Shown here in pieces: positions 9,956-63,344 of a DNA stretch of 64,000 nt. Numbering within the stretch: the first letter of the stretch is position 1; every line of letters begins with the position of its first letter. The position numbers were made by a program, and so were the translations under genes. Below the pieces are notes generated by a model. It searched no databases and had not been told where the DNA came from. It was given only the letters and a program-made list of their open reading frames with translations. Source of the stretch: a virus; IMG/VR virus record IMGVR_UViG_3300038451_000147, positions 1 through 64,000 of that record, one strand, 5' to 3'.

Positions 9956-10050
9956 GCGAATGTGATATGGATACAGATGCCAACGCGCCCGAATGGTGCG
10001 AGAAGTGCAAAGCCATCTATCCTAAGAGATGTGAAAAGCATTCAAAATGA
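9952..10050 (+). CDS. 32-aa zinc-knuckle peptide
   Basis: CDMDTDANAPEWCEKCKAIY then CEKH: a Cys-rich peptide with CEKC and CEKH knuckles. ATGA overlaps with both neighbours. Confidence 0.45.
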   Translation: MSECDMDTDANAPEWCEKCKAIYPKRCEKHSK

Positions 10051-10793
10051 AAGTCATGGTAATGTCGGACATCCATTACGAGAAGGACTTCCATCATCGA
10101 ATATGGGAAGGAGACGCTCTCAAGTGGATACTCTCGATGGTTGAGCAACACTACCCATCAGACTTAGTGCTTCTCGGAGATACAGGTTATTCGTGGGACG
10201 AAGAAGAATGGGAGACCTTGCTAGAGAAGATTAGAGTCCACGCTATCTACGGCAATCACGACAATGTGCAAATGATGAAATCTCTTCGGAACGTAGACCG
10301 AAGTAAGGTATGGGCCAAAGACGGCGAAGTGCGCGAAATCCAAGGATTGAAGTTCGGCTTCATCAACAGCATCATGGGGTTCGATAAAGAACGAAGACGT
10401 AGAAGGAACTATAAGGAAGTTTACCAAGGGCATACAACCGACATAATGTGGGTTCCAAGACTCTTCCCTGAAGAGTATCTACAGTATGCCAACATTCTTG
10501 CCGAGAAGCGGATAGACGCGCTTTGCACCCATGCCAGTATTCCATTCCCATCTGATGGCAAGAGATTCCATCCTTCTGAAGAGTTCGATACCCTCAACCA
10601 AGTCCTCAATATAATCAAACCACATATATGGTTTAGCGGCCATCTCTCTGGCCCTTATGCTGTAAGTTGGGCGCAAGACAGCATATTTATCAGAGTAGAT
10701 TCATCGCCACAAGAGAAGCACTATCTCTTAGTTGCAGACAAAATCCTTATCTACCATGACCATGACCTAATAGAACAGGTAGACTATTCATGA
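10047..10793 (+). CDS. Calcineurin-like metallophosphoesterase
   Basis: All metallophosphoesterase signatures are present in order: SDIHYE near residue 7 (D-x-H), LLGDTG near 43 (GD), GNHDN near 70 (GNHD), CTHASIP near 160 and SGHLSGPYA near 198 (GH-x-H-like, with the last His replaced by Gly-Pro-Tyr). It probably hydrolyses a phosphodiester or phosphoester with two metal ions. At 248 aa it is typical for a phage or archaeal member. ATGA overlaps with the nucleotidyltransferase after it. Confidence 0.8.
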   Translation: MKVMVMSDIHYEKDFHHRIWEGDALKWILSMVEQHYPSDLVLLGDTGYSWDEEEWETLLEKIRVHAIYGNHDNVQMMKSLRNVDRSKVWAKDGEVREIQGLKFGFINSIMGFDKERRRRRNYKEVYQGHTTDIMWVPRLFPEEYLQYANILAEKRIDALCTHASIPFPSDGKRFHPSEEFDTLNQVLNIIKPHIWFSGHLSGPYAVSWAQDSIFIRVDSSPQEKHYLLVADKILIYHDHDLIEQVDYS

Positions 10794-11440
10794 AGACCCT
10801 CTTCAAGACCGTAGTGGGAGCGCACATCTGGCACATGGAACATGAGGGTTCCGATACAGATATCTTTGAATGCTATCAGACTCCTACCATAGACCTACTA
10901 AGAGGAAAGGGCGGGATACGGAGTTTCTTCGAGCCTCATCAGACGGGCAACAGAGACATAGCCCAACACGAACTACAGACTGTAGTGAACCAACTCCTGA
11001 AGGGCAACCTCAACTTTGTCCTTGGTGTGATGTCTCCGATAAGAGAATGCTCTAGTGATACCCATATACAACTGATTGACCTCTTTTTAAAGCACCCACC
11101 CAAGAACCTCTACCATTCACTGAGAGGCATGGCCATCCATAATGTGAAACTCTATCAGGACGAGTTGGACTACCGCACCAAGAAGGTCAACACCATACTC
11201 CGAATCCTGAGATTGGGGATTGCCTATCTCACATCAGGAGACCTGAAGTTTGAACCCTACTATGGAACTAGGTCTGAGATAGACTCCAACATCAAGGCTC
11301 TCGATGAAGCCTACAAAGTCTCTGCACTCGAAGAGAAACTCCCTGAAGACAAACTTCGCAACATCCTCTACAACGCAAGAATCAAAGACCTGAACGAAGA
11401 GAACGACTGTTCCTACATCTGCGATAAGTATGAACCTTAA
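10790..11440 (+). CDS. RlaP-like predicted nucleotidyltransferase
   Basis: An N-terminal nucleotidyltransferase motif HEGSDTDIFECY (GS-x-x-D-x-D type) at about residues 19-30 is followed by a long helical region, as in the RlaP/DUF4269-like branch of polymerase-beta-fold enzymes linked to RNA repair. Overlaps the metallophosphoesterase by ATGA, so the two are co-translated; a phosphatase/nucleotidyltransferase pair suggests end-processing of RNA. Substrate unknown. The gene ends convergently against 11437. Confidence 0.6.
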   Translation: MKTLFKTVVGAHIWHMEHEGSDTDIFECYQTPTIDLLRGKGGIRSFFEPHQTGNRDIAQHELQTVVNQLLKGNLNFVLGVMSPIRECSSDTHIQLIDLFLKHPPKNLYHSLRGMAIHNVKLYQDELDYRTKKVNTILRILRLGIAYLTSGDLKFEPYYGTRSEIDSNIKALDEAYKVSALEEKLPEDKLRNILYNARIKDLNEENDCSYICDKYEP

Positions 11441-14327: not shown

Positions 14328-14771
14328 GTGCCAAGTTGTCACATTTGCGGAACAGAACTAACCGAAGAGAACTGGACAGATTCCAAACGTAAGAGGCTTG
14401 AGCGTATTTGCAAGATGTGTGATGTTAAGAGAGCAAGAGCATGGCGGAAAGCCCATCCAAATGGTGCGTATCATAAGTATCGGATTGGTGCAAAGGCATA
14501 CATGAGGAACTACATGAGAGGCTATCGCCAAAAGCATCTGGAAAGGATGCAAGAACTTGGTAGACTTGAGAAGCATAGAAGGACTAGGGAACTCCCGACA
14601 TCCACCATTCTCAACAAATCCTTCAAAGGAGCGCATCTCCACCATATAACCCCTTCTGTGGCTATCTACATCCCAAAGGGGCTACATAGAAGCGTGTTCC
14701 ACAATCTGAAGACAGGAGAGGGTATGGACGAAATCAATGCTAAAGCGTTAGCATGGGCTAAATCCTTATAA
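14328..14771 (+). CDS. HNH-like endonuclease with zinc knuckles
   Basis: The N-terminal CHICGTEL...CKMCDVK zinc pair is followed by a basic helical linker and a His-rich core HLHHITPSVAIYIPKGLHRS then VFHNLKTGEGM, matching a free-standing HNH family. 147 aa, GTG start at the expected promoter distance. Probably a homing-type or packaging-associated nuclease. Confidence 0.65.
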   Translation: MPSCHICGTELTEENWTDSKRKRLERICKMCDVKRARAWRKAHPNGAYHKYRIGAKAYMRNYMRGYRQKHLERMQELGRLEKHRRTRELPTSTILNKSFKGAHLHHITPSVAIYIPKGLHRSVFHNLKTGEGMDEINAKALAWAKSL

Positions 14772-14802: not shown

Positions 14803-16683
14803 ATGTCTGCGGCACAAGATTCCAATAAGGACGAGAACGCTGTAGTTCGTGCATTACGAGCCACAAGGATACTCGGCCCAAGGCAAGCAGGTTCTCCAAG
14901 GAGCCTTGATAACCCTACCCTTTCTGCATCCTACAAGCCACCCTTAGAGACACAGATAGGGCAAATCGAGAGGGGTGAGGCTTGGTGGAGAGACTTCGCT
15001 TGGGAAGAGTATGCGACTAAAGAGTTGCCCGGACTTGGACTTGGGTTCACAGTCTATCCTTACGTTGCTGTATGGGAGAAGATATGGGGCGCAGTCCCAA
15101 CAGAAGACTACCAGAAGTATAAACAATACTACGTTCAGGAACCGTTCATTCGGGCCACCATAGACTTCCACACTCAGATGACCATCTCACAGGGTTACGA
15201 ATTAGACTATCCACTAGCGACTGTAGTTCAGGATGTCAAACAGTTTCTTGATAGACACGACTTCCTCAATCTACTCAAGATAATGGTGAAGGATATGCTA
15301 GTCTTCGGCAACTCCTACACAGAGGTTGTGAGAACATGGTATTGCCACGAAACTGGCCACGACCTTGAAGCCCTCAGAATTTCTTATGAGGTCGAAGGCA
15401 AGGACGGAAAGGATAGTTACTGGTGGACAGACAGAGTGGACATTGCGGCTAGGCATGACAAGATGTATCCCACCCACAAACTGGAGAATCCCTACGGAGA
15501 GATTACCAGATTCAAGCCTCTTGACCCCATGTATATGCGAGTGAGAAGGGATGCCTATGGAACCATCCTTGGATACGTCCAATACTATGTATTCCCTCTA
15601 GTCACCTTCCTAGCAGATGAGATGATTCATCTCCGCTATATGCCTACTTCTTGGACGTATGAATCGGTCTATGGTGTCTCGATGCTACGCCCCATCCTCT
15701 TCCATCAGGAACTCATGAAGAACTATGAGGAGACGATGGGAGCCATCATGAACGTCTTCCTCAAGCCCATGTTCCTTGTCCATGTCGGCATCAATAGTGC
15801 GGGTGTCGTAGGACAGGAAGTGACTACGGCGCAGTATCAATCAGTGAGGAAATACTTCCAGACTGCACAGCCCGGACAGTCTATTGTAGTAAGAGCCGCC
15901 ACCCCGATAGCGATAGAACCAATCAACCCACCCATTGACAGAATGCAGTCTACGTCCTTCTGGCTTCAATGGTTGCACAACATGAGAACCTACGCTCTCT
16001 CAGTGCCGAAGTTCTTCACCGACCCTGCTGGACTGAACAGAGCCACAGCCCAGACCGTAGAGAGAGGATACTTCACATTCATCAACAGCAACAGACAGTC
16101 CCTCAACAGCCAACTAGAGAGGACGGTGATGATACTGGTCATGAGGTCTCTGTATGGCAAAGTTGCCGATGAACTGATTCATGAGTATGACGTTCCGAAG
16201 TTCATCTGGAAGCCAGTCAAAGAGGATTCCTTAGAAGACAAGGCCAAGACCTATATGCCCCTGTATGCTAGTCGCATCCTAACTAGAGACGAAGTGAGAA
16301 AGGCACTCGGCTTCGAGCCTCTAGATGTGGACGAGTTGACGGAAGAGATAGGCGAATCCGTTCCACCAATGCAAGGCGCAGGTACAGGTGCATTTGGGAT
16401 GACCAAAGAAGGAAGTCCGACCTTCGGAAGCCCAGACCGTGAGATGGCAACAAGACCCTCTCCAATGGGAGCAGAACTTGGTCGAGAGGGGCAACCGCCA
16501 GAAGAGAGACTGCCAGAGTACGGAGAAGACATCTTCTCCAAGACAGAACAGGACGCTAGAATAGAGGAACTTGAAGAGGGCATAGAAGACCTCAAGAGAC
16601 GGTTCCTGAAGGAAGAGCCGTTCACAGAAGAGACGATTAAAGACGAGATAGAGAGGCTCAAGATGCACACCCCGAAGAAGTAG
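14803..16683 (+). CDS. Portal protein
   Basis: A 626-aa protein with portal features: an N-terminal region followed by QEPFIRATIDFHTQMTISQG, a helical stem region, DEMIHLRYMPTSWTYESVYG, and a central MRTYALSVPKFFTD segment, then acidic low-complexity and a C-terminal coiled coil (ARIEELEEGIEDLKRRFLKE). Portals form the dodecameric DNA gate at one capsid vertex. The terminase lies 30 kb away, so head genes are split. Near the N-terminus ERGEAWWRDFAW is shared with the peptide at 5486. Confidence 0.75.
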   Translation: MSAAQDSNKDENAVVRALRATRILGPRQAGSPRSLDNPTLSASYKPPLETQIGQIERGEAWWRDFAWEEYATKELPGLGLGFTVYPYVAVWEKIWGAVPTEDYQKYKQYYVQEPFIRATIDFHTQMTISQGYELDYPLATVVQDVKQFLDRHDFLNLLKIMVKDMLVFGNSYTEVVRTWYCHETGHDLEALRISYEVEGKDGKDSYWWTDRVDIAARHDKMYPTHKLENPYGEITRFKPLDPMYMRVRRDAYGTILGYVQYYVFPLVTFLADEMIHLRYMPTSWTYESVYGVSMLRPILFHQELMKNYEETMGAIMNVFLKPMFLVHVGINSAGVVGQEVTTAQYQSVRKYFQTAQPGQSIVVRAATPIAIEPINPPIDRMQSTSFWLQWLHNMRTYALSVPKFFTDPAGLNRATAQTVERGYFTFINSNRQSLNSQLERTVMILVMRSLYGKVADELIHEYDVPKFIWKPVKEDSLEDKAKTYMPLYASRILTRDEVRKALGFEPLDVDELTEEIGESVPPMQGAGTGAFGMTKEGSPTFGSPDREMATRPSPMGAELGREGQPPEERLPEYGEDIFSKTEQDARIEELEEGIEDLKRRFLKEEPFTEETIKDEIERLKMHTPKK

Positions 16684-24595: not shown

Positions 24596-25334
24596 GCCTT
24601 AATAAAGATTCCTGTAGAACAAGGTGTGGGCTTTTAAGGAAGATTCTCCAATCCAAGGGTTCTACGGGCCTTTCATATAGCCTCAGAAAGTCGTCCTTGA
24701 AGTTGGTCGGGAACTGGCTATACCTCAGAATCTCAGTCATGCTCATCTCAGGAGTCACTGGCACTTTCCAGCGTATCGGGGTTGGGAAGTCGGGGTCTAC
24801 GGAATGCTTGGTCAGAGTTATCCGGCAGACTCTATCCAGACTTATGAAGGTTCTCTTGTCTATAAGAGATTGAACCCATGTGCTCAGATTCCAATAGAGC
24901 GTTTCCCTCTGTTTGCGTAGTTCGCCATAGGTTGTTGGATTGATGTGGATATAGAAGTGGAACCCCTTGCCAGCACTGAAGAAGAAGTCTATGTTGGGCC
25001 AGAACTTCTTAGCAAAGAATTGTGCCTTTTCCCAGATTTCTTCAAAGGTGTCCTTCGTGCCGTCTTCTTTCTCTCGCACATCTATGTCTATAAAGAGCCG
25101 ATTTATGATGACCTTTTCCTTCTGCTCTTCGAGCCACTCTTTTGTTCTCATTGGAGTATAGAAGGGAAAGTAGGCATCCTCAACCATCGCCATTCTATCA
25201 AGGATGTAATCATAGTAGTCGGCCTTCGTCTGTGCGTTATACCGATATTGCCCTATGTTGTCTGAAGGGAAGGAAGAGAAGTCTCTGTCCCACCACAAGC
25301 GGCAAATCTCTAAGAAAGGAAGAGTCGTCACCAT
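24585..25334 (-). CDS. Archaeo-eukaryotic primase, PriS-like catalytic subunit
   Basis: 249 aa. The catalytic D-x-D is in RLFIDIDVREKED near residue 77, the S-x-H signature in FFFSAGKGFHFYIHI near residue 117, and a third acidic position in ISLDRVCRIT near residue 170. It synthesises RNA or DNA primers. It is shorter than cellular PriS (about 330-360 aa), so the zinc-stem region may be reduced. ATG 25334 (MVTTLPFLEI) overlaps the HNH stop. The PriX-like protein at 29703 could be its partner. Confidence 0.75.
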   Translation of the reverse strand: MVTTLPFLEICRLWWDRDFSSFPSDNIGQYRYNAQTKADYYDYILDRMAMVEDAYFPFYTPMRTKEWLEEQKEKVIINRLFIDIDVREKEDGTKDTFEEIWEKAQFFAKKFWPNIDFFFSAGKGFHFYIHINPTTYGELRKQRETLYWNLSTWVQSLIDKRTFISLDRVCRITLTKHSVDPDFPTPIRWKVPVTPEMSMTEILRYSQFPTNFKDDFLRLYERPVEPLDWRIFLKSPHLVLQESLLRHGP

Positions 25335-25783
25335 TTGTTGGTCTCCCACTCTTTTATCCATTGACAGTTGAAACACAATACCTGCCATCCCTCTGGCCAT
25401 CCTTCTTTCTTGAGTTGCTCGTATAACTTGGTTCCATAAGGAAGTCCCTTTTTCTTATGTCCACCATCAACCAAATCTAACGTGAGAGCGCGAATGTCTT
25501 TGAAATGGCATTTAGAGCACTCCATTAATCCTTTAGAGTAATGAGCAACGGCTTCTCCTTTCATTCGTAATGCTCTTTTCTTATGATACTTCTTCTGAAG
25601 TTTCAACCACTGAGACCGATTTACTCTACGAAAGTTCTTCATTGCCTTTCCACTCTCATAATTGTGGTCTTTTTTGCACAAATAATGATACAGTTTTACA
25701 CAAGATGGATACCAATTCTCTCCTTCAATTAAGGGAACTCCGCAACTTCGGCACTTTGGATTGGAAGGACGAGTTCGTGGCAT
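25328..25783 (-). CDS. HNH-family protein lacking the core His
   Basis: 151 aa. CRSCGVPL and a basic helical region lead to the core LTLDLVDGGHKKKGLPYG and WPEGWQVLCFNCQWIKEW. Relatives here read IDH or VNH at the position that is DL here, so the general-base His is missing and the enzyme may be inactive or use the nearby GGH. Has its own promoter; overlaps the primase start. Confidence 0.65.
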   Translation of the reverse strand: MPRTRPSNPKCRSCGVPLIEGENWYPSCVKLYHYLCKKDHNYESGKAMKNFRRVNRSQWLKLQKKYHKKRALRMKGEAVAHYSKGLMECSKCHFKDIRALTLDLVDGGHKKKGLPYGTKLYEQLKKEGWPEGWQVLCFNCQWIKEWETNKW

Positions 25784-29706: not shown

Positions 29707-30101
29707 GTGAAGACAAGTTCAATACAGAGAATTTCAAGGCCCAATTCCACAAGGACGTAGAGTTCGGAAAGAGTAGCGGTGGCAGTAGTGAGGGCTATAC
29801 CTACATAGCGAAACTCCTTCTTGTGCCAGTCACAGATGGCCGCAATAGACTCCTCTGGCTCGTCTTGGCTCCCTACGCCATAAGCATCCTGAAGATGAGT
29901 AGAGAGAGCGCGATAGATATGATAACGGAATACTTCAAAGCGTGTAACAAACTGAGTCCCTGTCCCAAAGTCCTCAGTCTGGTCGAGCAGTATGTGGACT
30001 ATGTGCCGACCATCGAAGGCGGTCTCAAGCCGCCCAAACAGGAAACACTTATGGCCAGCGACCCCGACTTATGGGCTATCATTTCTAAGGCGATAGCATG
30101 A
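29703..30101 (+). CDS. PriX-like or primase C-terminal accessory protein
   Basis: 132 aa. The core DGRNRLLWLVLAPYAISILK, then MSRESAIDMITEYFKACNKL, resembles the helical domain of the archaeal non-catalytic primase subunit PriX and the PriCT regions of viral primases (GR-x-R...LAPYL...A...W...CN). It overlaps PolB by ATGA. It would supply substrate binding for the PriS-like primase at 24585. Identification rests on motif resemblance only. Confidence 0.45.
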   Translation: MSEDKFNTENFKAQFHKDVEFGKSSGGSSEGYTYIAKLLLVPVTDGRNRLLWLVLAPYAISILKMSRESAIDMITEYFKACNKLSPCPKVLSLVEQYVDYVPTIEGGLKPPKQETLMASDPDLWAIISKAIA

Positions 30102-32227
30102 TACCATTCGAGTCGGCCAACTACTTCACTGAGGTAGGGAAGGTCAAGATGAAGATATACAGGAACGGGGTGATTGAGGTAATAGACCCCACGCCTCTGC
30201 CCTATTGCTTCGCCCCGACCAAGTATGAGATACAGACGCAAGCCAAGATGGAAAGAACGGACATGAAGGCTTTCGACACAGGAGAGAGCGTGAAGAGATA
30301 CACCTTCAACGTGCCTCAGAACGTCAAGTTCTTCAGGAACTTTCAAGAGGCGAAGAGCGTGTCCGTCTATGAGGCCGACAAGAAGTATGTAGGAGTCTGG
30401 ATGCTAGACAACGACTTCGTATGTAGCGATTATGAGAATGAAGCATCGTGGGACACAGAAGAGGACGACTCAGGAGTGAAGCCCGACCCAGAGACGGCCA
30501 ACGTCCCGATAACAGCCATAGGCATCATCTACAAGGGGCAGAAGTATGCTTGGACAGGGGCAGAGAAGGGCATCTTACAGGGTGCGGTAGACTTCATCGG
30601 GGAGAACAAGATTGGTCTGCTGAAGGGTTGGAACAGCAAGTTCTGGGACGTTCCCTTCTTCATGAAGAGGATGGCCTACAGCAACGTGCGATTCGATTAC
30701 AGTTCGACTAGGTTCCTAGACCTCTCGCTGGCCTACCGTTTCATGGAAAAGAACTTCCGAAGCCAGTGGTCTCTAGAGAAGGTGGGCAAGAGGTTCTTCG
30801 CCATGAAGAAGCCCTTCACCAACATAAGGCTCAGTTCTTTGCCAGTAGAGCAACTGAAGGAGAGGGTGCTGTGGGATGCCGAAGTGACGGAGATGATAGA
30901 CACGGCCAAGAACCTGTTGACCAACGCGCCCAAGGATTATAGCAAAGTATGTATCCAGATGGCGAAGCAGGGCCACATCTTCCCAGACCAAATCTTCGGA
31001 GTCCATCCGGTCAAGAAGACCATCACAGTCACGCCAGTTCTCGACCAATACTTCCTGAAGTATGCACACAAACTAGGCTATGTATTGCCCTGCAAGAGTG
31101 GATACAACCAAAGACCCAAGTATACAGGAGCGTGGGTTGAGGTCTACGAGAGGGGCTTCTTCAACGATGTCCTTCAGTTCGATGTTGACTCTCTGTATCC
31201 CAACGTGATACTTGCATACAAACTGGCTCCGCAAGGCCGCTTCGACCTCATAGAACCTATAGTCCGAGACCTCTTGGCTGGCAAACGGAACGCCAAGGAC
31301 AAGGTAGAAAGATGGGCCTACAAGATTTCGGTCAACGCCCTCTATGGTATCTTCGCCAGCACCTACTACAGATTCAAGGCGGTAGAGGTCTCCGACCAGA
31401 CCTGCTTTCACGGAAGGGACATTCTCACTCACACGGCTGAGTTCCTGAGAAGTCTGGGCTATGTGGTCTACTATATGGACACAGACTCCATCTTCGTTCA
31501 TGGAACATGGGAAGAGAGGGAGACCATTCAGAATCTAATCAACGACTTCGTGAAGCGCACCTACAATCTTGACAACATCAAATTCGGATTGGAGAACCAC
31601 TGGAAAGTGATAGGCTTCCCAAGAAGCACGAAGGGTGAGAAAGCCAAAAAGAAGTATTACGGCATAGTGTATAGAGACAAGACAGGAGCAGAGGTCAACA
31701 GATTTGAAGAGGCTGGAATGGAGACGCTTCGTGGCGATTGGACTGAACTGGCCCAGATGGTTCAAGAGGCTCTGAAGAAGATGCAGGTCTCTGGGGTTCC
31801 TAAAGAGAGGATGCTGAACTTCTATGAGGTAACGAAGGTCAACCTCTACAAAGGGCAATATGACCCCTTGTTAGTGCTTGAGAAGCACATGAGTAAGGAT
31901 GTCTCTGAGTATGGTCTAGAGAAGATAGGGAAGAGTGGAAAGATGCACAAAGCAGGGATTCCACAGCACGTTAAGGCTTTCAAGAACGCCTTAGAGACGG
32001 GATGGGTTCCCAACGACATGGTGCAGTATGGTGTCGTCCAGTTCGTTATGACAAGAGGCGGGATACCGAAACTCACCAATCTAGTCAAGCCCGGAGAGAT
32101 AGACTACCAATGGTATGTGACGAAACAGATAGACCCCATCGTGTGGAGACTTGGTATTATCGAAGCTGTCACCAAGTATAAGAAGGAGAAGCCGACCAAG
32201 GAAAAGACGAAGCAGACGACCCTCTAA
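30098..32227 (+). CDS. polB: Family B DNA polymerase
   Basis: 709 aa. Polymerase motif A LQFDVDSLYPNVIL near residue 363, motif B AYKISVNALYGIFAS near 407 and motif C VYYMDTDSIFVHG near 450 are intact. Only about 45 residues separate A and B, so the fingers are short and there is no TPR1 insertion of protein-primed enzymes. Exonuclease: VWMLDNDFV near residue 93 in place of D-x-E, GWNSKFWDVPFF for Exo II and LWDAEVTEMI for Exo III, so proofreading may be altered. It is the main replicative polymerase candidate. The stop overlaps the minus gene at 32224. Confidence 0.9.
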   Translation: MIPFESANYFTEVGKVKMKIYRNGVIEVIDPTPLPYCFAPTKYEIQTQAKMERTDMKAFDTGESVKRYTFNVPQNVKFFRNFQEAKSVSVYEADKKYVGVWMLDNDFVCSDYENEASWDTEEDDSGVKPDPETANVPITAIGIIYKGQKYAWTGAEKGILQGAVDFIGENKIGLLKGWNSKFWDVPFFMKRMAYSNVRFDYSSTRFLDLSLAYRFMEKNFRSQWSLEKVGKRFFAMKKPFTNIRLSSLPVEQLKERVLWDAEVTEMIDTAKNLLTNAPKDYSKVCIQMAKQGHIFPDQIFGVHPVKKTITVTPVLDQYFLKYAHKLGYVLPCKSGYNQRPKYTGAWVEVYERGFFNDVLQFDVDSLYPNVILAYKLAPQGRFDLIEPIVRDLLAGKRNAKDKVERWAYKISVNALYGIFASTYYRFKAVEVSDQTCFHGRDILTHTAEFLRSLGYVVYYMDTDSIFVHGTWEERETIQNLINDFVKRTYNLDNIKFGLENHWKVIGFPRSTKGEKAKKKYYGIVYRDKTGAEVNRFEEAGMETLRGDWTELAQMVQEALKKMQVSGVPKERMLNFYEVTKVNLYKGQYDPLLVLEKHMSKDVSEYGLEKIGKSGKMHKAGIPQHVKAFKNALETGWVPNDMVQYGVVQFVMTRGGIPKLTNLVKPGEIDYQWYVTKQIDPIVWRLGIIEAVTKYKKEKPTKEKTKQTTL

Positions 32228-43088: not shown

Positions 43089-43541
43089 TCACAGAACGCA
43101 GGACATGAGCCAACCGTCCTCTTCAGGATTCGTGTAGTATTGAGGTATCTTCATATTGATGAAATAGCCGAGTTTCTCATACATACGGATGGCCGCCTCA
43201 TTGCTCTTCCGAACCTGAAGACAAGCCATAGGGATGTTCCTCTCTCTCATAGCTCTGTGAGCCTCATACATCAGTTTACACCCTATCTCTTGGCCCTTGT
43301 GCGCGGGGTCTACTGCGACAGAGATGACCAGACCCATACGAATGTAGTTAACTGTTTCCTCTCTACACATGACATAGCCTATCACCTTCCCATCCAATTT
43401 GGCCACATAGAACATATCCCCGAACTGGTTAAGATGATGCGTCCAGAAGGATGGCACATAGATTTCGGGCATACTGGCCGCATTGAGAGCCATCATAGCA
43501 GGAAGGTCTGTCCTAAGAGGGTGCTGGATTATGAGACTCAT
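43089..43541 (-). CDS. GNAT acetyltransferase, RimI/Ard1-like
   Basis: 150 aa, one GNAT domain. Motif A is VISVAVDPAHKGQEIGCKLM; the acetyl-CoA loop normally reads R-x-x-G-x-G, here K-G-Q-E-I-G. Motif B is LQVRKSNEAAIRMYEKLGYF as in N-terminal acetyltransferases. It may acetylate host or viral protein N-termini. ATGA overlap with the XPF gene. Confidence 0.75.
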   Translation of the reverse strand: MSLIIQHPLRTDLPAMMALNAASMPEIYVPSFWTHHLNQFGDMFYVAKLDGKVIGYVMCREETVNYIRMGLVISVAVDPAHKGQEIGCKLMYEAHRAMRERNIPMACLQVRKSNEAAIRMYEKLGYFINMKIPQYYTNPEEDGWLMSCVL

Positions 43542-44242
43542 GAAAATAGCACCTGAAATATCTCAGTGGCTTTGGCCTCTCCAATACGTCTTCCAGATTG
43601 AAGTTTAAGAGTGGAAAGCATAAAGATAACATCTTCTTTGGAATATTGTAGTTTCCAATACAGACATATCTCATAGAAGCGTTGTCGAAGTGCTTTACCT
43701 GTTTCATGTCCAAAAGCGTCAAGAAGATATTCACGTTTCTTCTCTACAGACCAATCCCTACGGAAGCCCCTTCGCTCTGGGAACTCCTTCTTCTCCTTCG
43801 GCTTGCCCAACTTGAAGTTCTGATGAGTGAGATAGAGAGCCGTGTCTGCCTTGTCCATAGTGATAACAAGACCAACACCAAAAGCCCGGAACGCTGTAAG
43901 AGCCTCATAGAAGGACACCTTTCTCTCTGGATGGGCCACAAAGTAGTCGTCAAGACGCATCCACTTCTTGATAGTCCAGTCGTAGAATCCTAACCCTTCC
44001 AGAATGACGAAAGGCTCGTAAGCGTTCTTGTTGTTCGAGAGGTCTTTCAGTTGCTCGAAGATGCGGCCATCGTGAACAGATGCAAGAAAGTCCTTCAGTT
44101 CCTTCCTCTCATACATCCTGCTCTTCTCCACACCCTGAATGACGTTATCCGTTCCAATCTCTTCGGCCTTAACTATAACGACATCGGGCGGGAGCAAGCC
44201 CTTCAGAGTTTCGGCCTCTTGCTTGTTGATATACCAGACCAA
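43538..44242 (-). CDS. XPF/ERCC4-type structure-specific nuclease
   Basis: 234 aa. The ERCC4 signature is YERKELKDFLASVHDGRIFE (ERKxxxDFxxS) near residues 44-63, with preceding acidic Asp in VEKSRMY. A C-terminal helical region (LQSGRRIGEAKATEIFQVLF) resembles an HhH pair. Cleaves branched DNA, e.g. stalled forks or recombination intermediates before packaging. Uses a TTG start at 44242 four bases after the upstream stop. Confidence 0.75.
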   Translation of the reverse strand: MVWYINKQEAETLKGLLPPDVVIVKAEEIGTDNVIQGVEKSRMYERKELKDFLASVHDGRIFEQLKDLSNNKNAYEPFVILEGLGFYDWTIKKWMRLDDYFVAHPERKVSFYEALTAFRAFGVGLVITMDKADTALYLTHQNFKLGKPKEKKEFPERRGFRRDWSVEKKREYLLDAFGHETGKALRQRFYEICLYWKLQYSKEDVIFMLSTLKLQSGRRIGEAKATEIFQVLFS

Positions 44243-44972: not shown

Positions 44973-44977
44973 GAATG

Positions 44978-45004
44978 CTTATTAAGCACACAACCTATAT
45001 AAAC
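44978..45004. promoter_or_regulatory. Interleaved divergent TATA boxes
   Basis: CTTATTAAG (44978-44986) lies 25 bases before the terminase ATG (45011); CCTATATAAAC (44994-45004), read on the minus strand as GTTTATATAGG, lies 22 bases before ATG 44972. Each box lies within the other's transcript. Confidence 0.55.
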
Positions 45005-45010
45005 ATTGCA

Positions 45011-46564
45011 ATGAGTAGTTCCAATGAGCGTCTTCTGAAGAGTCTGGAACAGGAGTTCGACAAAATTAAGGCGAAGGAACCCAAAGACGTTACTCTAGAC
45101 CTCAGTGACCCTATGACATTTGTTGAGAACTACGTCAAACTTCCAGAGAAAGCTCCACCAGAGCAGAAGACTTGGTTCGAGCAACGGCCTTGGCTTTCAG
45201 AAATCTACAGAGATGGGAACAAGAGAATTGTTATAGTGAAGGGCCGACAGATGGAAGTCTCCGAGTATGCCGTGAATATGCTGTTCTATTGGGCCGCAAA
45301 ATGGCCGGGGAAGTATATCTACGCCTCTTCGTCAGGTGACAAGGCAGATGTCTTCAGCCATGACCGCTACCAGAAGCAACTCTCTCGAAGCCCTACGCTC
45401 CAAGCCCTTGTGCGAGACGAAGCCGTTAGAAGGGTGCAATATGCGAAGTCCGAAGTCTACTTTATGACAGCCTATGAAGACACCAAGACTCTGAGAAGCA
45501 TTGACGCTGATGGCATCATCCTTGATGAGTTCCAAGACTACAGGGCCAACGCCATCCCCATCGCTGAAGAGGGTCTGGCTCACAGTCAACTCAAGAGGCT
45601 TTGGGTGATAGGAACTCCCTATCTCACAGGAACCAACTTCTCTAGTAAGTGGGACGAAAGCACAAAGAAGGAGTGGAACAAAGAGAAACAGATGTGGGAA
45701 GTAACCAACCCTAAGTCAGATGGGATGTGGCAAGGCTATCACATCAGTCAGGAGATGGCAGTAGGGGTATGGCTTACCCCAGAGGAGTTCGAGTATAGGA
45801 GAGCACACAAGCCAGCACAGGAGTTTGCGAATGAGTGTCTAGGATTATTCTATGCTGGACTCGGAAGACCGACAGACTACGGTTACATGAGTTCACTCTT
45901 CAGCCCGTCTTTAATGAAGGGCCAATTCGGAAAGGGTGAACTTCTGATTTCGGGTATAGATTGGGGTATCTCCAAGTCTAATACGGTCTTCTACTTGATT
46001 CGACCAAGACTTCTAGAGTTGCCAGACCTCTATACAATAGACACTCTTTATGTTGAAAAGGTAGACAATCCAGATATAACCAAACAGATTGCAAGAATCG
46101 CGCAACTCCTCACTACCTTTCCCACTGTAATCAATGTGCTAGACTACGGCACTGGTTTCGTGCAAAATCAGGAACTCTACAAACAGTTCGGAAACCGAGT
46201 GATACAGATAGAATTAGGCAGTGGAAAACTAGGCAAGCCCATAACGGTAGAGCAAACCGCCTTTGGCCCGATAGCCAAAGTCAACAGAACGTGGGCTATA
46301 GACACGGCTATGGATTACGTCACTAGACCAGACAGATTCAGATTTTACAACGAGACAGACAAAGGCACAAAGGACTGGATTATCAGAGACTTTTTGGCTG
46401 AATACCCTGAAACGAGCAAAACCACCGAAAAGAAGATTTGGATTCACAGTTCCGATGCCACAGACGACTGCCTCATCGCCTTCGTGAATGCTATGATTGG
46501 CTTCCAACTTCAGAAGTCGGCTAGTATGCCGGAGCGCGTGGAAGATATGATTAGTTTCGTGTGA
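45011..46564 (+). CDS. terL: Large terminase subunit (TerL)
   Basis: 517 aa. Packages DNA into the head. The ATPase shows IVIVKGRQMEVSEYA where Walker A normally reads GRQxGKT, i.e. without the P-loop Lys; Walker B is IDADGIILDEFQDY; motif III WVIGTPYLTG. The nuclease has Asp in ISGIDWGISKSNT, INVLDYGTGF and ATDDCLIAFV, the RNase H-like triad. ATG 45011 (MSSSNERL) fits promoter spacing better than ATG 44975. Confidence 0.85.
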   Translation: MSSSNERLLKSLEQEFDKIKAKEPKDVTLDLSDPMTFVENYVKLPEKAPPEQKTWFEQRPWLSEIYRDGNKRIVIVKGRQMEVSEYAVNMLFYWAAKWPGKYIYASSSGDKADVFSHDRYQKQLSRSPTLQALVRDEAVRRVQYAKSEVYFMTAYEDTKTLRSIDADGIILDEFQDYRANAIPIAEEGLAHSQLKRLWVIGTPYLTGTNFSSKWDESTKKEWNKEKQMWEVTNPKSDGMWQGYHISQEMAVGVWLTPEEFEYRRAHKPAQEFANECLGLFYAGLGRPTDYGYMSSLFSPSLMKGQFGKGELLISGIDWGISKSNTVFYLIRPRLLELPDLYTIDTLYVEKVDNPDITKQIARIAQLLTTFPTVINVLDYGTGFVQNQELYKQFGNRVIQIELGSGKLGKPITVEQTAFGPIAKVNRTWAIDTAMDYVTRPDRFRFYNETDKGTKDWIIRDFLAEYPETSKTTEKKIWIHSSDATDDCLIAFVNAMIGFQLQKSASMPERVEDMISFV

Positions 46565-58196: not shown

Positions 58197-58667
58197 TTAT
58201 TTCCATTTGATAACAAAGGGCAATGGCCCAAACTTCAACTCAAGATAATGCCTAGCATTACAAGGTCTGCAAGTTACTTCCAAATCTTCTATTGACCTCT
58301 CGCCAGAGAGGATTTTTTTGTAAAAGGTCGTAGTTTTACTGCTACCATTATGCTTGTGTTTGTAATCAGTCTTATTTCCGCCACCCTTCTTATGATTAAC
58401 CTCAAGCAATCGAATATCATCGCATCCACAATAGACACATTTTGGAACTTCAAAACCAGATACCTTCTGAAAGACCTTCAGACGATGCTCAAGATACCAC
58501 TTATGAAGACGTTCAGCATATCCTGTTTTTTCTCGCCAACTTTTGTTCTTTCTGTTCATCTCATCTCTATGCACTTCACGATAGTTTCTGTCATACTTAC
58601 ATTGGCAATCTTTACATCGGCTTTGTCTTGGAGCGTCTATCTCTTTTCCACAAGAACAATGAGGCAT
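58197..58667 (-). CDS. HNH endonuclease, 156 aa
   Basis: N-terminal CSCGKEIDAPRQSRCKDCQC zinc pair, then CVYCGCDDIRLLEVNHKKGG with GNKTDYKHKH, a core with His after Asn, and CRPCNARHYLELKFG with the last Cys pair. A canonical HNH with treble-clef zinc. Promoter-supported. Converges on 56138-58153. Confidence 0.75.
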   Translation of the reverse strand: MPHCSCGKEIDAPRQSRCKDCQCKYDRNYREVHRDEMNRKNKSWREKTGYAERLHKWYLEHRLKVFQKVSGFEVPKCVYCGCDDIRLLEVNHKKGGGNKTDYKHKHNGSSKTTTFYKKILSGERSIEDLEVTCRPCNARHYLELKFGPLPFVIKWK

Positions 58668-58698: not shown

Positions 58699-58909
58699 TC
58701 TTGTGACTGCTAACATCATTCACATACGCAAGAAGAAGAGTCATATGACGACAATGCCTATGAACCCAAAAACCCAGACAGTCGCACGACCCCACATTCG
58801 CTTCTCTACTGTAGAAGAGGTTGTGTGGTAGGTCTTCGGGATGAGACTTGGATTTGACTGTAGCGAACACTAAACCACCTTCATCTTGCAATATAGTTAC
58901 TTCAGACAT
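58694..58909 (-). CDS. SWIM-type zinc finger protein, 71 aa
   Basis: CDCLGFWVHRHCRHM is a C-x-C-x(8)-C-x-H SWIM finger; the preceding FATVKSKSHPEDLPHNLFYS is strand-rich as in other SWIM proteins. ATG 58909 overlaps the upstream HNH stop by 8 bases. SWIM domains bind DNA or protein in recombination factors and transposases; no other domain here. Confidence 0.6.
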   Translation of the reverse strand: MSEVTILQDEGGLVFATVKSKSHPEDLPHNLFYSREANVGSCDCLGFWVHRHCRHMTLLLAYVNDVSSHKS

Positions 58910-59432
58910 TTCTCTTTCTCCCATAATATTCTTGAAGCAAAGGTTCTACAATGCTTCTAATGTTACTCCAACGCCTACCCACTTTAACTTCATAAGCGAC
59001 TTGGCAATTCATACAACAGGTTTCCAAATCGTCTGTCTTCCTCTTTCCAGATACTATCATTCTATAAAGGTCGTTGCCTTCTAGTTTTAGAGCCTTTCTT
59101 TCAGAATTGCCGCCCCCGTTCTTATGGTTGATAGATAAAATCAAAGGATTTGCTTCACCACAATACACACACTTTGTCCCAACAATTCTCAACGCCTTGC
59201 TTTTTACTCTCCAATTATAATTGCCAGCATATTCGGGATGCTCTCGAAGATAATGTCTATGATAGCCTTCGTAAGACAAACCCTTTATCTGTCGCTTTCT
59301 TGCTGTCTCAATTGAGCATTTTTTACATTGTGTGCGATACCAAAATTTGCCAGTCTTTGTGTTCCTATTAACATAGAACTCAGAAAGAGGTCGCTCTACT
59401 CCACATTTAGTGCAAACCTTAGAAGTTATCAC
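58902..59432 (-). CDS. HNH endonuclease, 176 aa, GTG start
   Basis: N-terminal CTKCGVERPLSEFYVNRNTK and CKKCSIETARKR zinc pair; core CVYCGEANPLILSINHKNGG with GNSERKALKLEG, then CCMNCQVAYEVKVG. Strongly resembles the HNH at 58197 in the core, so a recent paralogue pair flanking the SWIM gene. GTG start 22 bases from a minus-strand GTTTTTATAG. Confidence 0.75.
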   Translation of the reverse strand: MITSKVCTKCGVERPLSEFYVNRNTKTGKFWYRTQCKKCSIETARKRQIKGLSYEGYHRHYLREHPEYAGNYNWRVKSKALRIVGTKCVYCGEANPLILSINHKNGGGNSERKALKLEGNDLYRMIVSGKRKTDDLETCCMNCQVAYEVKVGRRWSNIRSIVEPLLQEYYGRKRNV

Positions 59433-60039: not shown

Positions 60040-60272
60040 TGCTTCATCCCTCTGAATACTGCTACAATCCACCAGACGGCGGCTTGAAGCATCAACGTGG
60101 CTGTAGTTATGAGGAGTCCTTCTTCGTAGAAACATGGAACCATGAACGTGAGCAAGGCCGAACACGGAATCGAAGTCTTTCGTGGAACTTGGGCGTTCTT
60201 ATTCCATGCAGTAGGCATCGTAGTAAGTGCTAATCCGAATGACGCTATTGCTATCAGTAAATCCCATATCAA
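60036..60272 (-). CDS. Three-helix phage-type membrane protein, 78 aa
   Basis: TTG 60272 overlaps the upstream TGA as TTGA. Three hydrophobic segments (LIWDLLIAIASFGLALTTMP, SALLTFMVPCFYEEGLLITT, MLQAAVWWIVAVFRGMK). This size and spacing match a small membrane protein widespread in phages, of unknown role. Confidence 0.6.
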   Translation of the reverse strand: MIWDLLIAIASFGLALTTMPTAWNKNAQVPRKTSIPCSALLTFMVPCFYEEGLLITTATLMLQAAVWWIVAVFRGMKQ

Positions 60273-60526
60273 AGAGACCCCACCCTCTCGATACCGCCAA
60301 AGTCTTGCATTAGAAGGTAAGTGCCTTCTGGTGTAAGTGGCCACGCCTTTGATTCGTAGACAAGTTTGTATGAGTCTTGGTCTGGGTCGTAGACAACACC
60401 AACAAGTTTCGCGTCAGAAGGGAGATGGGACTTAATCCTGTAAACCCCATTCAACTTGAACATCTCTTGCATTCCTTCCCTAGTCACCAAAAGGAACTTC
60501 TTGCCAGTCATGGGTTGAGGCATCAT
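60269..60526 (-). CDS. Unknown 85-aa protein
   Basis: MMPQPMTGKKFLLVTREGMQ; strands and loops (KLVGVVYDPDQDSYKLVYES) with an aromatic core suggest a small beta-barrel. Overlaps uS2 by 4 bases (ATGA). Not recognised. Confidence 0.55.
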   Translation of the reverse strand: MMPQPMTGKKFLLVTREGMQEMFKLNGVYRIKSHLPSDAKLVGVVYDPDQDSYKLVYESKAWPLTPEGTYLLMQDFGGIERVGSL

Positions 60527-61233
60527 TCTTCCTCACCCTCTTCCTCTTTCTCTGGCATCTTGGTCTCGAAGTCTTCGATGGTAAGAGGCTCCTTTGTCTC
60601 ATACTTGCAGATGTCTTCCATCTTCATCTCCTCTAGCCAGCCACTATGGAGTAGGATAGACCGGGCCAGAAGGTAGTAAACGGTGGCGATGGCCTTGGCT
60701 CCCACGTTGTTAGCCGGAATAGCGATATCCACATCCTCAAAGGTGGCGTTGGTGTTGCAGATGGCTATGACAGGGATGCCTATGCTAGAGGCTTCATACA
60801 TGGCTCGTCTGTCTCCTCTCATGGCTTCCCCTATCTTCTGTGGGACTCCATTAGTAGGGTCTGAGACCACCAGACAGTCAGCATCCACATAACTCTTGAT
60901 TTGAGAGTTGGTGAGGCTTCCCGCAACGAGACGGTGCATAACTATTGGGATGAGGGTAGCGGCATTGAAAGACTTGAGGGCATTGTCGAATCTGGGGTCT
61001 GTAGCATAGAACAAGGGTCTCATTGCAGGGTCTTGTCCATGTCGGCTTATGTGTTTGCCCACCACATCCAGTTTGTTCAGAATGGCGTTGATGTCCATCA
61101 ATGGATTGCCAGCCGGAGAAACCTCAGAGACATAGATGGCCATGTCTTTGGTGACACCGCCCTTTACCCCGATGTGGATGCCAGTGGCTCTGAGAGCGTC
61201 CTCTGTCAGCATCTTGGGAAGGATGAGACTCAT
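60523..61233 (-). CDS. rps2: Ribosomal protein uS2, archaeal type
   Basis: 236 aa. The diagnostic uS2 run is present: RATGIHIGVKGGVTKDMAIY (GxHIG..KDM), RLVAGSLTNSQIKSYVDADC (GTLTN...D), VVSDPTNGVPQKIGEA, GIPVIAICNTNATFEDVDIA, then IPANNVGAKAIATVYYLLAR. It lacks any bacterial-type insert and ends in an acidic tail (EKEEEGEEE) as in archaea and eukaryotes. uS2 is a small-subunit body protein near the mRNA exit/Shine-Dalgarno region. Here it overlaps DHH upstream and a small gene downstream by ATGA, so it is an integral operon member, not a passenger. Confidence 0.9.
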   Translation of the reverse strand: MSLILPKMLTEDALRATGIHIGVKGGVTKDMAIYVSEVSPAGNPLMDINAILNKLDVVGKHISRHGQDPAMRPLFYATDPRFDNALKSFNAATLIPIVMHRLVAGSLTNSQIKSYVDADCLVVSDPTNGVPQKIGEAMRGDRRAMYEASSIGIPVIAICNTNATFEDVDIAIPANNVGAKAIATVYYLLARSILLHSGWLEEMKMEDICKYETKEPLTIEDFETKMPEKEEEGEEE

Positions 61234-62435
61234 GCAAAACTCTCCTCTACCGCCCTCACCAACTCGTCCAGAACGGCTTCTGGATTGTTGATGTGGGCCT
61301 TGGCAGACCCCGCTTCTCTCAAACCGCCACCTTCCATGATGGTTGGATTGGCCGTTCTGAAGACCTTTCCGATGTGAATCGGACTATCCGCTTGGCCGTT
61401 CCTTCCTGAGACATGGATACCATACTTAGGAATGGTGTTGATGACGAACCAAGGCTTCTTGTTCTGGCCACCCAACTTGTTCGCCATTGCCGAGCCGATG
61501 TTCCATTCGTGGCTGATGACGGAGACTCCGTAGTTTCCAGTGACCATCGGGAACTCCAACTTCACGTTATTCTTCCAGTCCTCTGAGACCTTCTTGAACT
61601 CCGGCTTATACTTGATGTGGTTCATGGCCATCATCTGAGTATTGGGATTCTTCCCATCTGTAAAGAGAGGAGATGCCAAACTCCCCTTGGTTATCAGAGT
61701 ATAGAGTTCCAACCAGTTGGGTATCTGCTCCAACTCCTTCATGGCCTCATAACAGAAAGGTGGTGCGGCATTGAAGACCATCCTACGTTGGACATGGAGC
61801 AACTGAGCATAGAAGTCTATGAGACCCCAATCATAGCCTAAATTCGCTTGTGTCGCTAAAAGCCCCTTGAGGCCAGCGTGTCTTGAAAGGATGTCCTGAT
61901 AGATTGGGCCACCCTCTTGGCTGTCGCTTGCTACATCGCCTCTGAGTCCGAGCAAGGCCCACTTCTCCATGTTGGCGATTGGCCATTCCAATCTCTTGGC
62001 CCACTTGTAGACGATTCCAGTGGTGCAGTTCTCAGTAGTTGATTCATAGACAAAGGTGGTGTTACCAACAGGTTCGGTCTTGTAACTAGACAAAAGTGCT
62101 TTGTATGTTGCGTAGTCTTCTGGGGTCTCCACTTCTGAGTCGGGCGGATGGTTGTCCCAAAGCACTACATTGATACCAGACTGCATAAGACTCATGGCCT
62201 TTGAGAGCATATCTAGGCCGCTTCCCAAGTCTAGAAGGTAAGCGGTTTCTGGCTTCAGAGCCTTGATTGCCGCTACATTCGCATCCGTCACCCCAAAAGT
62301 ATCCCAATCTTGCCAGATGATGGTGTGCTTCGAGTTGGGCTTCGTTTGGGTGAGTGCATTGTGGACTATCCTAGTGGCGCACATCCCATCGGTATCTTCA
62401 TCGGTCATAATGACCGTATCCTTGTTCTCGCTCAC
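61230..62435 (-). CDS. DHH/DHHA1 phosphoesterase (RecJ/GAN-like)
   Basis: 401 aa. Motif I IMTDEDTDGMCATRIVHNAL (D-x-D-G), motif III INVVLWDNHPPDSE (DNH in place of DHH), motif IV GLRGDVASDSQEGG, and a DHHA1 half with TIMEGGGLREAGSAKAHIN (GGG-x-x-x-AG). This is the plan of archaeal RecJ/GAN 5'-3' exonuclease and of nanoRNases. Could be part of replisome, repair or short-RNA recycling. Co-translated with uS2. Confidence 0.75.
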   Translation of the reverse strand: MSENKDTVIMTDEDTDGMCATRIVHNALTQTKPNSKHTIIWQDWDTFGVTDANVAAIKALKPETAYLLDLGSGLDMLSKAMSLMQSGINVVLWDNHPPDSEVETPEDYATYKALLSSYKTEPVGNTTFVYESTTENCTTGIVYKWAKRLEWPIANMEKWALLGLRGDVASDSQEGGPIYQDILSRHAGLKGLLATQANLGYDWGLIDFYAQLLHVQRRMVFNAAPPFCYEAMKELEQIPNWLELYTLITKGSLASPLFTDGKNPNTQMMAMNHIKYKPEFKKVSEDWKNNVKLEFPMVTGNYGVSVISHEWNIGSAMANKLGGQNKKPWFVINTIPKYGIHVSGRNGQADSPIHIGKVFRTANPTIMEGGGLREAGSAKAHINNPEAVLDELVRAVEESFA

Positions 62436-62653
62436 GCCTTTTCACCCGCTACAGCCCCGACCCCAATCTTGAGACCGAAACCGTTTTCGAGTTTGAACAT
62501 GACAGCATGGTTCACTGTCATCTCTTCTGGCATCTCAACAGTCTTCGAGAACTTCTCTCTGGTGCGCTCGTCTGTCACAGTTAGCGCAAGAGTTCCATCT
62601 TTGCTTATCTTGTAGGGGCCGAAATCTCCTTCCCACAATGTTTCTGTTTTCAT
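62432..62653 (-). CDS. Unknown 73-aa protein
   Basis: MKTETLWEGDFGPYKISKDG then VTDERTREKFSKTVEMPEEM and GFGLKIGVGAVAG: a small alpha/beta protein. First gene of the uS2 operon. Not recognised. Confidence 0.6.
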   Translation of the reverse strand: MKTETLWEGDFGPYKISKDGTLALTVTDERTREKFSKTVEMPEEMTVNHAVMFKLENGFGLKIGVGAVAGEKA

Positions 62654-62672: not shown

Positions 62673-62683
62673 AGGTATTTAAG
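62673..62683 (-). promoter_or_regulatory. TATA box for the DHH-uS2 operon
   Basis: Minus-strand GAATCCTTAAATACC, 20 bases before ATG 62653, with GAATGGGTAGGCC before the start. Confidence 0.7.
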
Positions 62684-62687
62684 GATT

Positions 62688-63344
62688 CTAGACAGACTTC
62701 CTTACCCCTTTCATGAAGGTCTCTAGTTTCTTGTGGACTTCCTCTAGAACGATGACATCCTGCTTGTTGTGTTGAACGATGTATCGCATCGAGTTTGGAT
62801 TGACCATCGCCGTCTTCCAGATTGTGGGTTCTAGGGGTGTCTTCTCTTCCACATGGAGCAAAGAGGCAACAGAAGCCAGTCTGTTGGAGTGCAATTGGAG
62901 TTTGGCCTTGACCAGATAGTAGAGGTCAACGTGCTGAACCTCACCATAGGCCGGGAAGTCTAGACCCCAATCCAAGGCGCGAGTCCTTATCATGGGAAGG
63001 TCGAAGCCAGTCCCATAGTAGGTGTAGAGAACGTCATATTGTCTCATCGCGTCTATACACGCTTGGACTGTCCTCTTGTCAAAAGTCTCGGCAAGCGGCT
63101 CATCTGGGACTCTCATGCAGTCCCAAACCATCTCCCTACTGTCTCTAGTCTTGATGGCCCAACTGTAGATAATGTTGAAGTCTCCCTGAAGACCGTTGGC
63201 TTCAATATCTAGATAGCCAACCTTCATGTCCTTATTCATATAGTCATCAAGGAACTTCTTCCAACAGTTCGGGTGTCCTACGCCAGTGTGCGCGTGTTCG
63301 CACTTCCACAGCGCGGGACTGATTAGTGGTTTCTTACCTTTCAT
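62688..63344 (-). CDS. RNase H-fold 3'-5' exonuclease (YprB/DnaQ-like)
   Basis: 218 aa. Exo I VGYLDIEANGLQGDFN (D-x-E), Exo II YTYYGTGFDLPMIRTR (GxxFD), Exo III RYIVQHNKQDVIVLEEVHKK (Y...H-N...D): the full DEDD set missing from the polymerase's first motif. Stand-alone relatives are predicted DNA or RNA 3'-5' nucleases. It may supply proofreading in trans, but that is a guess. Confidence 0.75.
   Translation of the reverse strand: MKGKKPLISPALWKCEHAHTGVGHPNCWKKFLDDYMNKDMKVGYLDIEANGLQGDFNIIYSWAIKTRDSREMVWDCMRVPDEPLAETFDKRTVQACIDAMRQYDVLYTYYGTGFDLPMIRTRALDWGLDFPAYGEVQHVDLYYLVKAKLQLHSNRLASVASLLHVEEKTPLEPTIWKTAMVNPNSMRYIVQHNKQDVIVLEEVHKKLETFMKGVRKSV

Follow-up and report, generated by a model that had tools for sequence, protein, structure and literature searches.

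The uS2 gene and its operon

A minus-strand open reading frame at 60523..61233 of the window (the 64,000-base stretch analyzed here, positions 1 to 64,000 of IMG/VR record IMGVR_UViG_3300038451_000147) encodes a 236-aa protein with an ATG start. The Pfam Ribosomal_S2 model, PF00318, matched this protein at 49.5 bits (cut-off 26.1 bits). A phmmer search of PDB chains returned 141 matches to archaeal and eukaryotic uS2 of solved ribosomes, the best of which was an archaeal uS2 (E=3e-24, residues 9-193). TIGR01012, the NCBI model of archaeal/eukaryotic uS2, was matched at E=1.7e-34 across model positions 6-183 of 196. An AlphaFold2 model built from a 32-sequence alignment that included cellular uS2s reached a pLDDT of 88.9 and a pTM of 0.87, and Foldseek placed archaeal uS2 first among PDB structures (E=1.8e-18, TM 0.90), with matches that include the Pyrococcus, Saccharolobus, and Methanosarcina ribosomes. 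A search of a predicted viral structure library gave nothing at E<0.01. Coordinates, strand, PF00318, phmmer, and predicted fold all agree with the original prediction of an archaeal uS2 at this position, and confirm from sequence and modeling a full-length uS2 of the archaeal/eukaryotic type whose fold is a predicted one.

The gene lies within a minus-strand operon in which a TATA box is followed by a 73-codon gene (62432..62653), a gene for a DHH/RecJ-like phosphoesterase (61230..62435; 401 aa, GTG start), the uS2 gene, and an 85-codon gene (60269..60526), with successive overlaps of 4 bases. The start codon of uS2 overlaps the DHH stop codon as ATGA, and co-translation of the two is therefore likely. 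The archaeal TATA box, CTTAAATA (62676..62683, minus strand, with GAATC before it), is located approximately 23-30 bases upstream of the ATG of the 73-codon cistron, a spacing typical of leaderless transcripts. A box is present upstream of the operon in three of the four large genomes described below, and two relatives have a similar box ahead of DHH. The proposal that uS2 and DHH are co-translated under a viral promoter thus holds for co-translation, whereas the promoter precedes the 73-codon cistron and not uS2 or DHH directly. On the same strand, an RNase H-fold exonuclease-like protein (62688..63344) has its own TATA promoter and is a conserved neighbor in relatives.

TTWAWA located 20-38 bases upstream of a start codon is the archaeal TATA-box position of leaderless transcripts. 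This core was found at -38..-20 of 17 of the 106 genes of the window's genome that are conserved in relatives (0.8 expected), and the same scan of three related genomes identified 25, 28, and 14 genes (approximately 1 expected). SD-like motifs were enriched as well (34% vs 18%), as expected for internal cistrons. The virus had been suggested to remodel ribosomes so as to favor its leaderless or TTG-start mRNAs; the leaderless-type promoters fit such a mechanism, but TTG starts are a minority, at 10 of the 106 conserved genes as called.

An archaeal tailed virus and its relatives

The complete IMG/VR record comprises 105,335 bases, and its two ends share an 82-base repeat, which indicates that the genome is probably complete. 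Virus hallmarks on the plus strand of the window include the terminase large subunit (44975..46564) and the portal protein (14803..16683), together with a family B DNA polymerase (30098..32227). The genome also encodes an HK97-type capsid protein and replication-type genes for PriX, archaeal-type SSB/RPA-like, and Rad51-like proteins. Terminase, portal, HK97 capsid, and archaeal TATA promoters identify the record as an archaeal tailed virus (Caudoviricetes), and the uS2 gene, unusual for a virus, belongs to a genuine archaeal virus as predicted. A tRNA and Rfam search of the window gave no match, and Pfam and NCBIfam scans of another 90 proteins gave no other ribosomal protein family (for NCBIfam, among the first 25 of 29 families listed). 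These results argue against a chromosomal island carrying ribosomal operons, an objection raised with the prediction that does not apply here.

An IMG/VR search using the uS2 protein and an alignment that included cellular uS2 identified four other viral contigs and none beyond them, each carrying uS2 beside DHH; such a search of other viral genomes had been proposed as a check. Their uS2 proteins are 79% (L005), 66% (L006, in record G002), 61% (L007, in G003), and 53% (L088, in G004) identical to that of the window. No match was obtained when INPHARED phages were searched with the window uS2. A search of IMG/VR with DHH recovered the same contigs alone. Relatives without uS2 were sought in IMG/VR with terminase and DHH, and these searches gave only the same group, several fragments of which are too short to include the locus. 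Two terminase matches looked as if they contained in-frame stops, but these codons apparently lie immediately beyond the open reading frame and are not defects.

The four large genomes are 105, 106, 91, and 107 kb in length, and two of them carry terminal repeats, of 82 and 123 bases. Compared with the other large genomes, the window shows identities of 59-74% for terminase, 50-68% for uS2, and 45-56% for DHH; between genomes, uS2 is intermediate, under terminase or polymerase and over DHH. The dN/dS of uS2 was 0.14-0.17 in two unsaturated pairs, and the DHH gene gave similar values. The intermediate identity and low dN/dS are the behavior of a core gene kept by selection, and by these sequence measures uS2 is a core gene under purifying selection in a family of archaeal tailed viruses of roughly 105 kb.

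Other genes in these genomes

A GNAT acetyltransferase gene (43089-43541, minus strand) is nearest to archaeal NatA/Ard1 (SSO0209, E=1e-15) and scores 80 bits for rimI, against a cut-off of 86 bits. The corresponding position in G002 and G004 holds an ORF of equal size, and this is possibly another protein-modifying or translation-linked gene. A conserved block at genome positions 96413-102708 (L003 15413-18634; L004 650-3708) includes a glutamine amidotransferase domain, a 290-aa ORF that is probably a RimK-like ATP-grasp match, and two large ORFs of unknown family. A SET-domain protein (L002 17018-17533, minus strand; genome 80018-80533; E=1e-11) is a putative lysine methyltransferase. At 10047-11440 (plus strand) of the window, a calcineurin-like phosphoesterase adjoins an RlaP nucleotidyltransferase of an RNA repair family.

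Of two capsid-like genes (L002 12544-13479 and L003 6524-7435; genome 75544-76479 and 87524-88435), one is clearly of HK97 type and the other is a divergent copy. A 1236-aa protein of short repeats resembling SGSIGxxxSGxxxITHQxV (L002 7192-10902, minus strand; genome 70192-73902) is possibly a fiber, and its length varies from 517 to 929 aa in relatives. Small Cys/His-rich, HNH endonuclease-like ORFs (14328-14771, 25328-25783, 58197-58667, and 58902-59432 of the window) are numerous, and their placement varies among relatives.

Phylogeny, origin, and host

A tree was constructed from the five viral uS2s and the 80 best cellular uS2s among the matches listed, a sample that may lack a closer cellular relative. 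The viral proteins group together in a single clade (100/100 support), whose stem measures approximately 1.2-1.9 changes per column. Strong support places this clade on the Nitrososphaeria side, a placement open to long-branch effects; a grouping with Bathyarchaeia was not rejected (AU p 0.11). The highest identity in the alignment between a viral uS2 and any of these 80 cellular uS2s was approximately 41%. Monophyly on a long stem and this low identity point to an old acquisition and not to contamination, so the concern that phylogeny might reveal a host copy does not apply. We infer that uS2 was captured once, from a host in the Nitrososphaeria/Bathyarchaeia part of the archaea.

Viral metagenomes are known to be prone to contamination with cellular DNA, as PMC6375957 cautions, and host contamination, a chimeric assembly, or a recent, useless passenger gene was considered as an explanation. 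The same locus nevertheless occurs in five contigs whose source datasets differ, two genomes carry terminal repeats (82 and 123 bases), the viral clade stands apart from the cellular uS2s sampled, no other ribosomal genes were found, and dN/dS is well below 1. This explanation, whose probability is negligible, was ruled out.

The host may be guessed to lie within the same Nitrososphaeria/Bathyarchaeia region. For CRISPR evidence of the host, a 20-kb stretch of the virus was compared with 300 Nitrososphaeria-class and 257 Bathyarchaeia-class genomes; only short partial matches resulted, and none of the six Nitrososphaeria loci that were checked was a spacer array. A provirus search of both classes found terminase relatives (25-34% identity) that share nothing but terminase. 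In the Nitrososphaeria-class set, a 3.2-kb contig (L147, G280:C67) carries a gene for an ERCC4-type nuclease, with 50% identity to window 43538-44242, next to a gene with 36% identity to genome 81593-82057; this contig is possibly from a related virus within a Nitrososphaeria bin.

Divergence of viral uS2 from cellular uS2

All five viral uS2s scored 108-133 bits on TIGR01012, below its equivalog cut-off of 211.5 bits, whereas a cellular control (L009) scored 230 bits. A 12-residue insertion (codons 127-138; 60820..60855, minus strand) is present in 5/5 viral and 0/80 cellular archaeal uS2s; it follows the DP motif and reads TNGVPQKIGEAM in the window. Near-invariant columns were defined as those at least 95% conserved among the 80 cellular archaeal uS2s (n=39). 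The window protein keeps 25 of these and the five viral proteins 24-28, compared with 92% in the least typical cellular uS2. Ten of the 39 are altered in every viral uS2. The DP and PxNNxG motifs are among the near-invariant residues retained, and virus-specific residues are also conserved across the viral proteins. The original description of the signature residues as intact is therefore right for most near-invariant columns and wrong for the ten changed throughout, and it does not cover the insertion.

Basic positions are altered as well. Positions 26, 37, 39, 79, 177, and 179 are K/R in 82-100% of cellular archaeal uS2s, and this basic character is lost in all five viral proteins. Charge is reversed at position 79 (Asp in 5/5, within an alignment that is gapless around it) and at position 37 (Glu in 4/5). 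The net charge of the core is -1 to +3, compared with a cellular mean of +6.3. Nearby K24, R81, R142, and R143 might compensate. In E. coli uS2, positions 26, 39, and 79 are basic as well and 37, 177, and 179 are not, so conservation of the lost positions is only partly universal. Their conservation suggests that the lost residues may be rRNA contacts.

An unchanged predicted fold with altered surface chemistry would suit a dominant-negative decoy, which would occupy the protein partners of uS2 or its place on the 30S subunit while functioning incompletely, and would stall host 30S maturation or shut off host translation. Competition could naturally act on a protein that joins late (PMC10931766). 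Tailed viruses, however, need host translation throughout infection, and purifying selection suggests more than a blocking surface; a decoy is quite improbable.

The same losses, together with the conserved virus-specific insertion and residues, would also fit exaptation of the uS2 fold to work off the ribosome, where it would partner a RecJ/GAN-like DHH nuclease or serve as its nucleic-acid-binding subunit in viral DNA/RNA metabolism. DHH and uS2 are neighbors in all five contigs known to span the locus, overlapping in the window, and IMG/VR searches, at the sensitivity applied, recovered neither gene from any other contig. The DHH motifs (DEDTDG in the window; DEDTDG or DEDSDG, DNH, and GGG overall) are kept in 5/5 viruses. 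By profile and by the fold of a predicted model that is good in its N-terminal part only, DHH is nearest to RecJ/GAN/Cdc45, far under equivalog cut-offs, and the exonuclease-like gene adjoins the operon. The pair is nevertheless parted by an HNH-like gene in L007/G003 and by approximately 170 bases in L088/G004, the retained near-invariant residues (DP and PxNNxG included) speak against exaptation, and we know of no uS2-nuclease complex. Such a change of function is a serious alternative, if less likely than action on the ribosome.

Proposed action on the small subunit

The most likely reading, at about an even chance (probability roughly 0.5) and with a pure decoy counted in addition, is that this virus-owned, long-diverged uS2 targets the host small subunit, by replacing or competing with host uS2. 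Full-length homology, predicted fold, conservation, selection, operon position, and leaderless promoters are evidence for such targeting; the lost conserved basic residues, the lower charge, and scores beneath the equivalog cut-off are evidence against it. uS2 would be made from a leaderless operon jointly with the RecJ-like nuclease and would take the place of host uS2, or compete with it, at a late step of 30S assembly. In bacteria, uS2 joins the 30S subunit among the last proteins, touching both head and body (PMC10931766), and incorporation of viral bS21 and bL12 into the ribosomes of the host has been shown (PMC6375957). By analogy with those proteins, a late, outer-surface protein may be exchangeable, which favors ribosome targeting. 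On this reading, viral uS2 would be expressed in infection, bind ribosomes, and affect translation.

A more specific form of ribosome targeting would have viral uS2 replace host uS2 in new 30S subunits, with the insertion reshaping the mRNA exit chamber so that ribosomes prefer viral leaderless mRNAs. The archaeal exit chamber ends at uS2, and E. coli ribosomes without bS1 and uS2 favor leaderless mRNAs (PMC7531240; see also PMC3296737). bS1 is a bacterial protein, so this effect may not transfer to archaea. The specific form is unlikely.

Viral uS2 offers a concrete handle on the question of whether specialized ribosomes are produced by viruses, and its natural variation can be used to test the role of uS2 at the mRNA exit site of archaea dependent on leaderless transcripts. 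If it acts off the ribosome, it would clearly exemplify the recruitment of a universal ribosomal protein to a new function. A universal small-subunit protein as a specialized virus core gene would extend virus-encoded ribosomal proteins past small, easily exchanged ones, and into archaea.

Comparison with known systems

An earlier description of a virus-encoded uS2 was not found in the open-access literature, which was incompletely covered. The viral proteins resemble cellular archaeal/eukaryotic uS2 (TIGR01012; PF00318) in full-length homology, predicted fold, and about two-thirds of the near-invariant residues, but differ in the insertion, the ten changed residues, lower charge, and sub-cut-off scores. 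Bacterial viruses likewise carry one or a few ribosomal genes that evolve under purifying selection and are considered to alter the ribosomes of the host, among them bS21, bL12, and others (PMC6375957) and the six ribosomal proteins of phage PhiMa05 (PMC13157829); the term "uS2" is absent from both main texts. Archaeal tailed viruses also carry ribosomal protein genes, namely eL21 in haloarchaeal Hafunaviridae (PMC8651126) and bL19 in Kunpengvirus of Bathyarchaeia (PMC10848311); according to the latter paper, L21e was the sole earlier archaeal-virus ribosomal protein. Both are large-subunit proteins, whereas the uS2 described here belongs to the small-subunit head-body hinge, is strongly diverged, and occurs in every group member found.

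Another parallel is provided by the Borg elements of Methanoperedens, archaeal extrachromosomal elements that carry rpL11 and, in some cases, ribosomal protein S2 (PMC9605863). Borg uS2 groups beside that of its host and Borgs have not been shown to be viral, whereas the viral uS2 is far from any cellular uS2 examined. The presence of uS2 on an archaeal extrachromosomal element therefore has a precedent in Borgs, and what is new is a divergent uS2 fixed in archaeal tailed viruses.
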